Shown: in pieces, positions 1-22,743 of the stretch
Position numbering within the stretch: position 1 is the first letter of the stretch
Layout of the letters: the number at the start of each line of letters is the position of its first letter
Assembly (NCBI GenBank): GCA_015067075.1
Contig: SVND01000005.1
Coordinates: forward strand, 1-58,559
DNA length: 58,559 nucleotides
Direction of reading: 5' to 3'
From: Oscillospiraceae bacterium
Lineage (GTDB): Bacteria; Bacillota; Clostridia; Oscillospirales; SIG530
Position numbers and translations under genes: made by a program
The notes under the pieces: generated by a model
Told to the model about the DNA's origin: nothing
Database searches by the model: none
What the model saw: the letters and a program-made list of their open reading frames with translations, nothing else

Positions 1-1003
1 TAACAGGCAAAGTTGCAAGGCACATGCCGATATTTTCACACATTTGGAACATTATCATTGCGAAAATGCCGACACACATTATGGAGCCTGCATCACTTTG
101 CACATGAAGTGCAATATAAAGGATTCGTATAGCCATCGCCGCAAGCAACAAGACGACCGCCATCGCTCCGACAAAGCCAAGCTCCTCCCCTATTATGCCG
201 AAAATAAAGTCCGTATGCTTTGCAGGTAAAAGCGTATTGGATTGGCTTCTGACACCGTCCATGTAGCCAAGTCCGAAAAGTCCGCCGGATTGAATAGCGT
301 ATAAGCTTTGAAGCGGCTGAAAGCCGTATCCCTGCGGGTCGAGCTGAGGATTAAAGCCAACGAGTATCCTGCTTCGCTGGTATTCTTTAAGCAGATGTAT
401 CCACAGCACGGGCGTTATAGATATTACGACGAGTGCCATGAAAATGAAATACCTTATTTTCACGCCAGCCGCAAACATCATACAAACAGACATAAATATA
501 AAAACGAGTGCCGAGCCCATATCTCCCTGCAAAAGCACAAGACCTACAATAAGTCCCATATGTATCCATATTCCAAGCATCGTTTTCACTTTCGAAAGCC
601 TGTCCTTAACTGAGTACAAATGCGTTGCAAAGGTGATAGAAAACGTTATTTTTGCAATCTCTGACGTCTGAATATTGACAGGTCCTATGGCTATCCACGA
701 CTTATTTCCGCCCATACTGTAGCCGATGACAAGCGTTCCCACAAGAGCTACAGCTGTCGCCGCAATAATGACCTTCCACATTTTTGAATAAAACCTGAAA
801 TCAAACGCCGCAAGCACGAACATCGCCGCTATAGATATTACAAAAGCCACGCTTTGTACTATTATGAATTTATCCGTTGAAAATGAACGTGTTGCGCTGT
901 ATATCATGGCAAGACCGAGCGACGACAGCGCAATCGCAATAGAAATAGTCATATAGTCCATTTTCACGAAAAAATCAGCTAATGCCGAAAAAAATCTTTT
1001 CAA
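1..1003 (-). CDS. rodA: RodA/FtsW/SpoVE-family peptidoglycan glycosyltransferase, C-terminus cut by window edge
   Basis: SEDS-family polytopic membrane protein that polymerises lipid II into glycan strands. About 334 codons are present, and the frame is still open at position 1, so roughly the last 40-60 residues of a normal 370-400 aa protein are missing. Visible hallmarks: a run of hydrophobic helices, the QPDxG-like segment LLQGDMGSALV, the large loop with NPQLDPQGYG and QSGGLFGLG, and KHTDFIFGIIGEELG containing the conserved Asp of the SEDS catalytic site. The start is read as TTG at 1003-1001, because GAGGGAG lies 7-8 nt upstream, inside the end of manA. The gap to the manA stop is 4 nt, so the two are probably co-transcribed. 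The PExHTDFIF Glu is Ala here. RodA, FtsW and SpoVE cannot be separated safely without the C-terminus; the short N-terminus and lack of division genes nearby favour a RodA-like role. Confidence 0.88.
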   Translation of the reverse strand, partial: MKRFFSALADFFVKMDYMTISIAIALSSLGLAMIYSATRSFSTDKFIIVQSVAFVISIAAMFVLAAFDFRFYSKMWKVIIAATAVALVGTLVIGYSMGGNKSWIAIGPVNIQTSEIAKITFSITFATHLYSVKDRLSKVKTMLGIWIHMGLIVGLVLLQGDMGSALVFIFMSVCMMFAAGVKIRYFIFMALVVISITPVLWIHLLKEYQRSRILVGFNPQLDPQGYGFQPLQSLYAIQSGGLFGLGYMDGVRSQSNTLLPAKHTDFIFGIIGEELGFVGAMAVVLLLAAMAIRILYIALHVQSDAGSIMCVGIFAMIMFQMCENIGMCLATLPV

Positions 1004-18648: not shown

Positions 18649-19134
18649 CTATTCATCCGCTTCTAAAAAATGCGTCATGCCGTATATGGCATACGTCAAA
18701 AACTGCATTTTCTCGTTTAACTCATCCATTTCGTCCGTTATTTTTTCAACAAAAAAAGGAATTTGCTTTTTTATCGTTTCTTCATCAGTCCCGCGCAAAT
18801 ATTTTTTTATGAGCCTCAACGCCTCCATATTAACTTCAAATGATTTGCCGTTTAAAATAAAATCAAAAATGAAATCAATATGCTCTGTATAATCCAGCTC
18901 ACCAAGTGCGTAAAGAAGCGTTCCCCTGTTCCCTGCCGTTTTTTCCGATTTTAAAAGCTGAATTATTATCTCCGCAGTGCCGTCTGCTTTATGATCTGAC
19001 AATATCAACGCAAGACGATTTCTCTCTCCGTCGTCATCAGTCTCCAAAAGCATACTCTTACATTTTTCAAGCAACTCTGCCTTTTCCCGTTCCTTTGCAT
19101 TTTGCAAAAGTTCCTCAATCATCTTTGCATTCAT
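18649..19134 (-). CDS. Small all-helical, HEAT-repeat-like protein
   Basis: 161 aa, acidic, soluble. Successive helix pairs such as NRLALILSDHKADGTAEIII, GTLLYALGELDYTEHIDFI and EALRLIKKYLRGTD look like two to three HEAT/armadillo repeats. No catalytic motif. GGAAGGAAAATAACGT precedes ATG 19134. It lies 24 nt after the 19159 gene, and a damaged copy of its 5' end occurs at 20290-20433. HEAT-like small proteins are common among immunity proteins of polymorphic toxin loci, but no toxin is visible here, so that reading is speculative. Confidence 0.6.
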   Translation of the reverse strand: MNAKMIEELLQNAKEREKAELLEKCKSMLLETDDDGERNRLALILSDHKADGTAEIIIQLLKSEKTAGNRGTLLYALGELDYTEHIDFIFDFILNGKSFEVNMEALRLIKKYLRGTDEETIKKQIPFFVEKITDEMDELNEKMQFLTYAIYGMTHFLEADE

Positions 19135-19182
19135 ACGTTATTTTCCTTCCGCCTTTCATTACCACTCGATAACCGTTCCATA
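19009..19182. repeat. 174-bp direct duplication, copy 1 (intact genes)
   Basis: Matches 20308-20481 with six substitutions and no gap, counted by eye. It covers the first 42 codons of the HEAT-like gene, its ribosome site and the last codons of the 19159 gene. Confidence 0.95.
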
Positions 19183-19677
19183 TGCAACCATATGCGGTAT
19201 TCTCTCATCCTCATCACATATTTTAAAAAATCGCCATGTTTCACCTTTGTTGTCAGAATGATTTGTAAATGTTTCCAGCACCGTTTGATTGGAGAACCAA
19301 ATTTTAATATCATTTTGCTTTGATAAAAAAACTTTTTCTACATAAACCTCTTCTTTCCGAAGCTTTTCACATATTTCATCATACAGATTGTTCCCTTGAA
19401 TGTCCCAATCAAATTCCTCTGAATATTCCGTGTATTCACTGTCGGATCTCGGTACATACATATCATATGATGCAACAATTATTTCCGATGTTTTTTCATC
19501 CACTATACGCCACGGCGTTTGTAAATGCAATGCATACTCAGCTTTCATTACTTTCTGTCCTTTGTAATCGATTGTCTCATGCTTTTCACCAAAACCTATT
19601 GTTCCCATATCTATAGCGCGTCCAATCCACGTCAAAGGTTTTCCTATAATATCAATCAAATCATACGGTTTATTCAA
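19159..19677 (-). CDS. Orphan soluble protein, possible immunity-type
   Basis: 172 aa with no signal or membrane segment. The start is TTG 19677-19675, with GGAGG 7 nt upstream. N-terminal ...GRAIDMGTIGFG and central EYALHLQTPWRIVDEK recall a group of small bacterial proteins with a conserved YALHxQxxWRI core that I have seen annotated only as hypothetical. That recollection is uncertain. The rest (EEFDWDIQGNNLYDEI, IKIWFSNQTVLETF) suggests an alpha/beta or beta-sandwich protein. It forms a pair with the HEAT-like gene, and both junctions of the pair occur again at 20308-20481, so this pair was once present twice. Confidence 0.6.
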   Translation of the reverse strand: MNKPYDLIDIIGKPLTWIGRAIDMGTIGFGEKHETIDYKGQKVMKAEYALHLQTPWRIVDEKTSEIIVASYDMYVPRSDSEYTEYSEEFDWDIQGNNLYDEICEKLRKEEVYVEKVFLSKQNDIKIWFSNQTVLETFTNHSDNKGETWRFFKICDEDERIPHMVAYGTVIEW

Positions 19678-19741
19678 AATAATTCCTCCGTTATTCTAAT
19701 CTATTTGTACAAAAACTTACTTTCCAGACAACTACACCTTT

Positions 19742-20260
19742 TTAATTTTCCTTCAAATATATTTCTTCAATGTATGCCAGACCATATAATTCAAGTACAT
19801 GTACAGCCCATTCTCTGTGCAGTTTATAATTATAACACGCCCTGTATATTCTGCCTACACTTCCGTTACTATATTGCTCCTCGATAAATTTATCATAACT
19901 GTCCCACTGTTTTTCAGCATATTCCTCCCAATTATCCTTCATATCCGTTACATAAGAAGATGCATCGAGTAATCTATTGTAATACTCTTCACTGATACGA
20001 TCCCACTTCTCTGCATATTTAGCATGAAGCAACACATAATCGGTCGTGGAATAGTTTTCAGGTAGCCCGAGCTCTTCCTCATACGCCGCGTCCAATTCCC
20101 GAATTATTTTTTGTGTTTCAGTTTCATACAGTTCCACCTTTTGATCTATATCGTCCGTCAATGCATCATCAAACTTATTCATATCCTCATCTTGTTTGCC
20201 GCAAGATGCGAAGCATAAAACGATCACCAAAAGTATAACTATCATATTTCTTATTTTCAT
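19742..20260 (-). CDS. Small lipoprotein of unknown function
   Basis: 172 aa. Hydrophobic signal, then CFASC with a lipidated Cys at about residue 20, then a very acidic helical region (EDMNKFDDALTDD, YETETQKIIRELDAAYEEEL) that may form a coiled coil. Ribosome site AAAAGGAGATAGGAAT before ATG 20260. The 39-bp leader repeat (20274-20312) abuts this ribosome site. No family recognised. Confidence 0.65.
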   Translation of the reverse strand: MKIRNMIVILLVIVLCFASCGKQDEDMNKFDDALTDDIDQKVELYETETQKIIRELDAAYEEELGLPENYSTTDYVLLHAKYAEKWDRISEEYYNRLLDASSYVTDMKDNWEEYAEKQWDSYDKFIEEQYSNGSVGRIYRACYNYKLHREWAVHVLELYGLAYIEEIYLKEN

Positions 20261-20273
20261 ATTCCTATCTCCT

Positions 20274-20312
20274 TTTCAGTGCAAAAAATTCACTTCAACA
20301 AAAAAAGCGCAA
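20274..20312. repeat. 39-bp direct repeat, leader copy 1
   Basis: Identical to 22467-22505 except for one base, counted by eye. It carries the terminator 3' arm start and T tract of the unit at 22493-22544, plus the DNA leading to a lipoprotein start. Here the terminator 5' arm is missing. Confidence 0.9.
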
Positions 20313-20433
20313 GACGATTTCTCTCTCCGCCGTCATCAGTCTCCCAAAGCATACTCTTACATTTTTCAAGCAACTCTGCCTTTTCCCGTTCCTTTGCATT
20401 TTGCAAAAGTTCATCAATCGTCTTTGCATTCAT
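20290..20433 (-). pseudogene. Truncated copy of the HEAT-like gene
   Basis: ATG 20433 opens a 47-codon frame. Its first 42 residues match the start of the 18649 gene with a few substitutions (MNAKTIDELLQ against MNAKMIEELLQ). It then runs into the 39-bp leader repeat and stops. The junction lies in a shared CGCAA. The original ribosome site is kept, so a 47-aa peptide could still be made, but the repeats needed for the fold are lost. The W codon near the end of the other gene's fragment (20460-20481) is now TGA. Confidence 0.8.
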
Positions 20434-20481
20434 ACGTTATTTTCCTTCCGCCTTTCATCATCACTCGATAACCGTTCCATA
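20308..20481. repeat. 174-bp direct duplication, copy 2 (decayed)
   Basis: Second copy of 19009-19182, offset 1299 bp. One end fuses to the 39-bp leader repeat. The other end stops near TATGGAACGG, 30 bp before the end of the next gene. Confidence 0.95.
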
Positions 20482-20511
20482 CTTCAGTAGAAGGCTTTAG
20501 CGCGTTCGAAA

Positions 20512-21240
20512 TCATTTCTGTTGTGACGGCATATTTTTGTCACACTTCATTATCCGTATTACTCTTATCACTGCATACAGTAAAGAGCCTGTTAAGAATA
20601 TTACAAGACACCAAGACAGTATATTTATCACTGTTCCTGTATCTCTGACATCATATACTACATGTTCATTACCGTTTTCATCAGTCGCCACCAAATAATA
20701 ATCGTATCCCGTAAAAAAGCGAATAAAACTCATCTCTCCACTAGATTCGTATTTAAATCCATCCACATTCCTTACTGTGGAATAAGTGCTTTCCCAATAT
20801 TTTTCATTTTCATTTGACATTAAAATTTTTTGTACTTTCGCAACATCACCATTCTCGTTTAATGTTATAGCTAAGTCACTACGCACCAAATACACAACAA
20901 GTTTTCCGTCCTCAAAACCGACAGTATAACTTCCGGACGTTTCAAATTTATATCCATATTTAAAATCACCGTTTGAGTTATATATGCTTACAGTGCTTGT
21001 GCTACCAAATTCAGTTCCGATTGCAATGGTATCATTATTCAAAACATCAAAACAAATTATCGGGCGTTTTTTCGGTTCTTCCGTAATTAAAGCAAAGTTT
21101 AAATTTTCACGGGCATTTTTTTCTCTCTCACCTGATAATTCCACAGTATCAAAAGCAAAAGCAATATTATTTGCAGTTATTTGTATCGTAAAAAAAACGA
21201 GCAATAAAAAACACATGACAGCTTTTTTTATTGTGTTCAT
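20512..21240 (-). CDS. Exported protein with C-terminal membrane anchor
   Basis: 242 aa from ATG 21240, chosen because GGGAGGAAAAAG directly precedes it; the frame is open 90 nt further up but without a ribosome site. Signal peptide of about 28 residues ending ...AFA. The extracytoplasmic domain (about 30-195) has short beta-strand blocks (FDVLNNDTIAIGTE, VSIYNSNGDFKYGYKF, YYLVATDENGNEHVVYD) resembling propeller blades. A membrane helix lies at about 198-220, with a basic cytoplasmic tail. No family recognised. It stands alone between two small gene groups. Confidence 0.6.
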   Translation of the reverse strand: MNTIKKAVMCFLLLVFFTIQITANNIAFAFDTVELSGEREKNARENLNFALITEEPKKRPIICFDVLNNDTIAIGTEFGSTSTVSIYNSNGDFKYGYKFETSGSYTVGFEDGKLVVYLVRSDLAITLNENGDVAKVQKILMSNENEKYWESTYSTVRNVDGFKYESSGEMSFIRFFTGYDYYLVATDENGNEHVVYDVRDTGTVINILSWCLVIFLTGSLLYAVIRVIRIMKCDKNMPSQQK

Positions 21241-21424
21241 CTTTTTCCTCCCATGATTTCTAATACAGACTGTTATACCTTTATCATAATTTACAGCAAT
21301 ATAGTAACAGTTTTTTATATGGCAAGCCAACGCTCGTTACACAATCAGCAGTACCGTAATCTTCAATAAAATTTTGAGTTTACAAGCGCAACTTTAATAC
21401 AATAGTTTTCTTTCAAAACAATGT

Positions 21425-21817
21425 TTATTCCGTAGGTTTTTTAAGATAGTGTTCGATATCCTTATTTACTTCTCTTGTTTTGAGATGCATCAGCTGTAAA
21501 GCGCGATCAAACACTATTTTTTCTCTCCATAATGGCTCGAGTAGTTCTACTTGAAGACAATCTGTAACAAGCTTGTCTTCAGAATTTGCCATCATTTCAA
21601 AAAGATCAAAAATTTTTTCTACCTGTTTTTGATTGGATTTTTCTTTCAATGCTTTGAATAAGAATTCATTTAATGCTTCTGCAGGAAATTGGTAATAAAA
21701 AGTTGTTTCACTTTCATACAAGCGATCTCCAAACATATCCTCAAGCTTATCCATAGCTTGATCTATCAAATAAGGGAACATATTTTTTATATAATTAACC
21801 ACATCATACCTATCCAT
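21425..21817 (-). CDS. Small helical protein, possible DUF7674-like immunity protein
   Basis: 130 aa, soluble, helical. MFPYLIDQAMDKLEDMFGD, then KIFDLFEMMANSEDKLVTDC, then LQVELLEPLW resembles small proteins often found beside contact-dependent or LXG toxins (DUF7674-like; low certainty). The start overlaps the lipoprotein stop by 8 nt, so the two are translationally coupled. Confidence 0.6.
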   Translation of the reverse strand: MDRYDVVNYIKNMFPYLIDQAMDKLEDMFGDRLYESETTFYYQFPAEALNEFLFKALKEKSNQKQVEKIFDLFEMMANSEDKLVTDCLQVELLEPLWREKIVFDRALQLMHLKTREVNKDIEHYLKKPTE

Positions 21818-22454
21818 TTTCCCCCTGTCCTTTCATATGGTTATCATCGTATATTATTGTTGTAAAATAATCTTCTGTATCGTCATTGTATAGCTTAACA
21901 AACCACCCATTTTCTCCGTCAAGAGCTCTGGCATAAAGATACTCCGGCACATATCCATCTTTGTTCAGCTCGTTTTGTGCTATTTCAAGAGCAGTATCGC
22001 TGTCGAGATTCCATTTTGCAAGGTCTACAGCTTCTGTAAAAAGTCCCACTCCGCGATGTCCTGCATTGCGAAAACCAAATACAGTACCTTCGGTCAAATC
22101 GACAAACACCTCGTAAAAGCTTCTCTCGTCGCTGTTTTCTTTTTCAGGCGTGCAGTAGATAAATCGTATATCATACGTCTTTTCACCGTAATTTACATGC
22201 TCCCATTCTATTGCCGAGCAATACAATTTTTTCTCAGGCACATACTCCTCAACGTAGCCGTCAACTTCTGCTTGTATTTGCTTCAGTGTCTTTGCACTCC
22301 CATCGAGCTTAATTACGGGAGATTCCTTTGTAAAAAGAGCCTCGCTAACGAATTCAAGAAACGTATCTTCGCCAAAAAGACTGTCGTTTTCCGCCATACA
22401 TCCGCATAAAAAGCATAATATTGCACACATAAAAACAACTATAGTTTTTTTCAT
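21810..22454 (-). CDS. Lipoprotein of unknown function
   Basis: 214 aa. Signal, then lipobox LCGC with Cys19 (MKKTIVVFMCAILCFLCGC). The middle (FYEVFVDLTEGTVFGFRN, ALEIAQNELNKDGYV, NGWFVKLYNDD) has the strand-helix pattern of PepSY-like domains, without a clear match. First gene of a two-gene unit with 21425. It begins about 38 nt after the terminator of the small unit at 22493-22544, which could control it by attenuation. Its own ribosome site is weak (GAGTG). Confidence 0.62.
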   Translation of the reverse strand: MKKTIVVFMCAILCFLCGCMAENDSLFGEDTFLEFVSEALFTKESPVIKLDGSAKTLKQIQAEVDGYVEEYVPEKKLYCSAIEWEHVNYGEKTYDIRFIYCTPEKENSDERSFYEVFVDLTEGTVFGFRNAGHRGVGLFTEAVDLAKWNLDSDTALEIAQNELNKDGYVPEYLYARALDGENGWFVKLYNDDTEDYFTTIIYDDNHMKGQGENG

Positions 22455-22466
22455 AATATCACTCGC

Positions 22467-22505
22467 TTTCAGTACAAAAAATTCACTTCAACAAAAAAAG
22501 CGCAA
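22467..22505. repeat. 39-bp direct repeat, leader copy 2
   Basis: Counterpart of 20274-20312. Both copies sit just upstream of a lipoprotein start codon, in the same orientation. Confidence 0.9.
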
Positions 22506-22544
22506 AGATATCCCTCAGTATTTCCCTTTTGGATTCTTCGCGCT
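22493..22544 (-). terminator. Terminator or attenuator upstream of lipoprotein operon
   Basis: Minus-strand stem AGCGCGAAGA (22544-22535) pairs with TCTTTGCGCT (22508-22499). An inner AUCC/GGAU extension is possible, and seven T follow. It begins 1-2 nt after the stop of the 15-codon ORF. Confidence 0.8.
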
Positions 22545-22545
22545 G

Positions 22546-22593
22546 TTACATCGGTTTGATCTTCAGTTTTCCGCCATAAAGCTGTCTTCCCAC
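22546..22593 (-). CDS. Candidate 15-residue peptide (mini-ORF or leader peptide)
   Basis: GTG start at 22593-22591, with GGGAGG (22604-22599) 5 nt upstream. It encodes M-G-R-Q-L-Y-G-G-K-L-K-I-K-P-M and stops at TAA 22548-22546. The peptide is strongly basic with no acidic residue. A consensus promoter lies upstream and a terminator directly after, so the transcript is about 125 nt and almost entirely this ORF. It could be a leader peptide for attenuation of the lipoprotein gene at 22454, an independent small peptide, or a chance frame inside a structured RNA. I know of no named family for it. Confidence 0.45.
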   Translation of the reverse strand: MGRQLYGGKLKIKPM

Positions 22594-22624
22594 GGCTTCC
22601 TCCCGACAAGTTTTCTGTAACTAT

Positions 22625-22654
22625 ATTATACAGTATCTCGCACACCCTTGTCAA
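22625..22654 (-). promoter_or_regulatory. Consensus promoter for the small transcript
   Basis: Minus-strand TTGACA (22654-22649) and TATAAT (22630-22625), both perfect hexamers, 18-nt spacer. Confidence 0.82.
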
Positions 22655-22743
22655 CACAAATTTTGCCGTTTTTCTACTACAATTTTTACACTTAGGCGTA
22701 TTTACGCCTGCAAGCATATCCAAATAGACGGTTTTATCGGTAT

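Follow-up and report, generated by a model that had tools for sequence, protein, structure and literature searches.

A leader-peptide attenuator candidate with a recurring C-terminus upstream of three exported-protein genes in an Oscillospiraceae genome

A 58,559-nucleotide (nt) stretch of an Oscillospiraceae bacterium genome (GCA_015067075.1, contig SVND01000005.1; the whole stretch is called the window here) carries a compact transcription unit on the minus strand, 22654-22493, directly ahead of a lipoprotein gene. This unit, W, is probably a ribosome-mediated transcription attenuator with a leader peptide; we put the probability of that reading at about 0.7. The best evidence that its short open reading frame (ORF) matters is that W has two companions in the same genome, the units C70 and C27 on two other contigs, which make it a family of three. 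It is the recurrence of the C-terminal motif and the terminator at these two loci that raises W above chance. The initial annotation of the window had described a consensus promoter, GGGAGG, a GTG-initiated frame, TAA and a strong terminator, and every one of these elements was found on the minus strand in that layout:

22625..22654, minus strand: sigma-70 type promoter TTGACA-18-TATAAT, 12/12 consensus positions, spacer 18 nt (-35 box TTGACA at 22654-22649, -10 box TATAAT at 22630-22625)
22599..22604, minus strand: Shine-Dalgarno (SD) sequence GGGAGG, 5 nt ahead of GTG
22546..22593, minus strand: leader ORF MGRQLYGGKLKIKPM-TAA, 15 codons (GTG 22593-22591, TAA 22548-22546), with the coding stretch TCAAACCGATG
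22546..22569, minus strand: conserved C-terminal codons K-L-K-I-K-P-M-TAA, family motif [KR]LK[IV]KPM-TAA
22493..22544, minus strand: intrinsic terminator, stem from 22544 (1 nt past the stop), seven-T run ending at 22493

Transcription of W would start near 22618, and the SD sequence and the recurring C-terminus suggest that the leader ORF is translated. The 126-nt transcript folds with a z of -2.7 relative to shuffles, nearly all of it due to the terminator, which is the sole confident structure in this RNA.

Weak matches from a nucleotide search on two other contigs read out as two complete units of the same design. C70 encodes the peptide MKKTLFIQRLKVKPM-TAA, followed after 1 nt by a terminator and then by a second lipoprotein gene, while C27 encodes MKNKRLKIKPM-TAA, followed after 1-2 nt by a terminator and then by an S-layer-homology-domain (SLH) gene. 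In all three units a promoter with 12/12 consensus positions precedes GGAGG, which lies 4-5 nt ahead of GTG or ATG; the frame ends in [KR]LK[IV]KPM-TAA, and the stop is 1-2 nt from the terminator stem. The units are unlinked, and each lies directly ahead of an exported-protein gene on the same strand. In the 2.26-Mb genome a codon-pattern search for the motif returned exactly three matches, with zero in the reversed control. Base composition predicts about 3e-5 occurrences per genome of an SD sequence, a start and the motif in frame, and three were found. Relaxing the search within this genome revealed no further unit with up to three mismatches in the motif (there were zero one-mismatch matches, and the rest were near control level) and no further real case of any KPX-stop behind an SD sequence. 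The initial annotation had held that no such unit precedes other genes except as a relic; this is correct within the window and incorrect for the genome, where C70 and C27 carry units.

The perfect promoter of W is in itself unremarkable, because the genome has 153 perfect TTGACA-16..18-TATAAT sites, seemingly many for its 2.26 Mb, where the reversed control has one. Of about 30 perfect-promoter loci that were sampled, W alone had an SD-led short ORF running directly into a terminator; this layout is therefore not the organism's general way of building leaders.

What varies among the three units is the N-terminal residues, the ORF length, the spacer, the terminator loop and the downstream gene. 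The ORFs of W, C70 and C27 have 15, 15 and 11 codons, a difference of 12 nt that stays in frame. The first three codons of the motif vary mostly synonymously (Leu CTG/TTA, Lys AAG/AAA, Arg AGA/CGT), and such changes point to selection on the peptide. Of the options that the initial annotation had offered, the leader-peptide attenuator is the one favoured by these comparisons, given that frame, C-terminus and stop-to-terminator distance are all kept in three unlinked units.

The spacing of stop and terminator has a specific consequence for a ribosome at the end of the leader. Counted from the first base of its A-site codon, a ribosome reaches 12 nt ahead, so one that holds UAA there covers about 9 nt past the stop, and with them most of the terminator 5′ arm. 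Folded alone, the terminators have energies of -21.1 (W), -20.4 (C70) and -13.1 kcal/mol (C27), compared with -5.2, -5.5 and -6.2 kcal/mol, respectively, when UAA is in the A site. In the same fold computations, Met in the A site also removed most of the stem, and an A site on the final Lys, on the Ile/Val or on the Lys ahead of that left the terminator unchanged. Since these inner-codon positions leave the terminator intact, a ribosome can switch transcription only from the last one or two codons or the stop, and at the switch-competent positions the conserved residues sit in the peptidyl-transferase centre and upper tunnel. A candidate antiterminator involving GCGC near the start codon of C70 and C27 was rejected, since it does not arise in the predicted folds and W lacks it.

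We propose that RNA polymerase, starting at the strong promoter, would make a leader RNA of about 126 nt and by default end at the intrinsic terminator. A ribosome translating the 15-codon leader of W would arrive at UAA with Met in the P site and mask the terminator 5′ arm. If the C-terminus [KR]LK[IV]KPM slowed peptide release, the ribosome would linger and polymerase could enter the lipoprotein operon, while fast release, or a leader left untranslated, would let transcription end at the terminator. As three unrelated exported-protein genes share the device, probably one common signal is passed to them. That signal would act inside the ribosome, because a chain of 11-15 residues cannot leave the exit tunnel; candidate inputs are a small molecule, a drug, the supply of release factor or the general rate of translation. 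The output is probably envelope composition, because the downstream genes encode exported proteins. The conserved KPM-UAA is only suggestive of a stop-codon arrest signal, and the further step, that [KR]LK[IV]KPM-UAA is a termination-arrest peptide of a new class, sensing an intraribosomal ligand and defining in one bacterial lineage a small envelope regulon that needs no common transcription factor, is a tentative proposal that we think more apt to fail than to hold.

Several observations weigh against the attenuator reading. Only three examples are available, all within one genome, and two of them are not fully independent: W and C70 share upstream sequence including TAAGTGTAAAAAT and probably arose by duplication. 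The C27 terminator, at -13.1 kcal/mol, is weaker than the other two. Moreover, the last 14 nt of the ORF, TCAAACCGATGTAA, are identical in all three units, which exceeds the expectation from codon usage (P ~7e-4 for synonymous positions, with usage taken from the genome's sampled contigs). Either the copies are recent relative to constraint, or nucleotides or codons matter as well as residues; common descent or some nucleotide-level constraint thus appears to contribute to this identity.

The absence of the family elsewhere also counts against it. Strict and relaxed motif patterns were run against 394 genomes of the order and brought up no unit, with matches staying at control level; of the few relaxed matches that were in frame, this genome's own three aside, each was either internal to a long coding frame or spanned the start of a gene. 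When 147 related genomes were searched with the nucleotide sequence, all that matched were short pieces of promoter or terminator. Among about 85,000 species there were 20 matches; no short ORF with a terminator at its end was among them, and most ran straight into a longer gene or lay in other reading frames. Viral contigs and plasmids contained no counterpart. In the collection compared, this genome is the only member of its family, and scans of the collection may omit very near relatives, so that the leader family can be called lineage-restricted only as far as present data go.

The main rival is a variant of the attenuator reading that has no arrest peptide and in which the position of the stop suffices. 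Any ribosome trailing polymerase to the stop would partly prevent termination, and the output would track translation initiation or ribosome supply. In the Streptococcus gallolyticus pilus operon pil1, the variants that are ON need only have the leader stop 4 bp before the terminator hairpin or inside it (PMC3894217), so that position alone can suffice, and in each of our three units just 1-2 nt separate stop and stem. Such a gauge of translation leaves unexplained why the last seven residues are retained while the rest of the peptide is free, and the retained C-terminus argues against it as the whole story; we consider it possible, at well under even odds.

Less probable, and in our view doubtful, is a second variant, in which a macrolide-type drug bound in the tunnel stalls the ribosome and so induces the envelope gene. 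Macrolides arrest ribosomes at +X+ and XP motifs, and with erythromycin arrest occurs mainly at +X+ and XP/XPX (PMC13410324); the C-terminus here has +X+ motifs (KLK, KIK, RLK, KVK) and a Pro motif (KPM), a likeness of motif presence only. The leader of msrD, msrDL, which depends on macrolide, likewise ends in Met-UAA (PMC10314930). However, arrest at either +X+ would spare the terminator, so that only arrest at KPM or the stop would work, and none of the genes downstream of the three units, which encode lipoproteins and an SLH protein, resembles a resistance gene.

Slightly less probable again is that TCAAACCGATGTAA and the terminator together form a structured or protein-bound RNA target, the ORF being accidental. 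The invariance of the 14 nt is the ground for caution here. Yet every one of the three units reads the element in the frame of an SD-preceded start with no stop in between, the ORFs differ in length by 12 nt, and the upstream motif codons vary synonymously. The W sequence had no match in Rfam at gathering thresholds, and what loose settings brought up (two eukaryotic snoRNAs and a truncated rliF) was at chance level; the initial annotation, too, had recognised no standard riboswitch or small RNA core. Judged by eye, the three units share no fold besides the terminator, three sequences being too few for covariation. The accidental ORF that the initial annotation had allowed for is disfavoured accordingly.

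The same annotation had also allowed for a minimal gene for a functional basic peptide, with its own terminator and no effect on the next gene. The W unit is indeed self-contained, but the N-terminal part of the peptide is unconserved and all three units directly precede an exported-protein gene on the same strand, which makes this option improbable. Least probable of all, and very unlikely, is an attenuator of the trp/his type sensing the charging of Lys or Pro/Met tRNA: each peptide has several Lys/Arg codons, but there is no run of a single codon, stalling at Lys codons leaves the terminator untouched, no antiterminator is predicted, and the target genes are not biosynthetic.

Downstream of W lie the presumed regulated gene and its operon partner, and further along the strand a partial copy of its terminator; upstream lies an element shared with other loci:

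21810..22454, minus strand: lipoprotein gene, 214 amino acids (aa), without Pfam family; presumed regulated gene
21425..21817, minus strand: DUF7674 protein, second operon gene, 8-nt overlap with the lipoprotein gene
20269..20312, minus strand: decapitated relic ahead of lipoprotein gene 20260, made up of terminator 3′ arm and tail
22682..22694, minus strand: upstream element TAAGTGTAAAAAT, 27 nt ahead of the -35 box, common to C70 and two leaderless lipoprotein promoters

The ATG of the lipoprotein gene, at 22454, is 38 nt beyond the W terminator and has a weak ribosome site, in agreement with the initial annotation. Homologues of this lipoprotein were absent from 146 related genomes, and it is not like the lipoprotein encoded after C70, the third leader being followed by the SLH protein gene of C27. 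The element TAA[GA]TGTAAAAAT (22682-22694; L163, L162 and L172 around position 1500), which in two cases has GTAGTAG behind it, precedes the leaders of W and C70 as well as two leaderless lipoprotein promoters on contigs C46 and C44; it is a possible activator site of a lipoprotein regulon.

The region 18649-22454 is a cluster of small orphan genes (lipoproteins, DUF7674, HEAT-like and DUF6176-like) with internal duplications, and resembles an immunity-gene island or a rapidly rearranging one. The relic that the initial annotation had mentioned is real: 20269-20312 is a 44-nt copy, 93% identical, of the W terminator 3′ arm and tail. In 20269-20481, the beginning of a HEAT-like gene (18999-19182), copied over 184 nt (95%), is joined at a shared TTGCGCTT to the 44-nt terminator-tail copy, and the fusion leaves a 47-aa truncated ORF ahead of lipoprotein gene 20260. 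The leader at this locus was apparently lost through recombination.

The type of mechanism proposed for W is already known, while neither the peptide nor its deployment ahead of several envelope genes appears to have been described in the literature searched, where a search for the motif IKPM found no paper. A close parallel is msrDL (MYLIFM-UAA), on which the ribosome stalls with its P site on Met and its A site on UAA, so that an intrinsic terminator is blocked; induction is weaker when UAA is replaced by UAG or UGA (PMC10314930). In our three units the stop codon is likewise UAA, and both systems have very short peptides ending in Met-UAA, with the stop adjoining an intrinsic terminator that a ribosome can block. 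The sequences are unrelated (IFM versus KPM here), and msrD is an ABC-F macrolide resistance factor, whereas the genes here encode exported proteins. Stalling and drug dependence are properties of msrDL; for the units described here stalling is proposed and drug dependence would be doubtful. S. gallolyticus pil1 and pil3 share with them translation to a stop beside a premature terminator, control of surface proteins and more than one locus per genome. Unlike those leaders, ours have no GCAGA repeats or phase variation, their C-terminus is conserved and their ORF is far shorter. In E. coli, TnaC, the leader peptide of tnaCAB, blocks its own release with Pro24 in the P site and acts through Rho (PMC8429421). 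It also has Pro near the C-terminus, but it ends in Pro itself, depends on Rho in place of an intrinsic terminator, and senses tryptophan through Trp12 and Asp16, residues of a kind absent here; judged by their descriptions, neither MYLIFM nor TnaC is related in sequence to our peptides. In Bacillus subtilis, BmrB of bmrCD is another case of ribosome-mediated transcription attenuation in a Gram-positive bacterium (PMC4191407), with a 53-codon ORF, a terminator inside that ORF and alternative antiterminator structures; for our units no antiterminator is predicted. Most leader peptides are known singly, each serving a particular pathway or resistance gene. In this genome a single peptide ending recurs ahead of unrelated exported proteins while dispensable parts have changed, which marks out the functional residues and allows a sharp test of ribosome arrest. 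If the reading is true, several envelope genes would have their common sensor in the ribosome itself.
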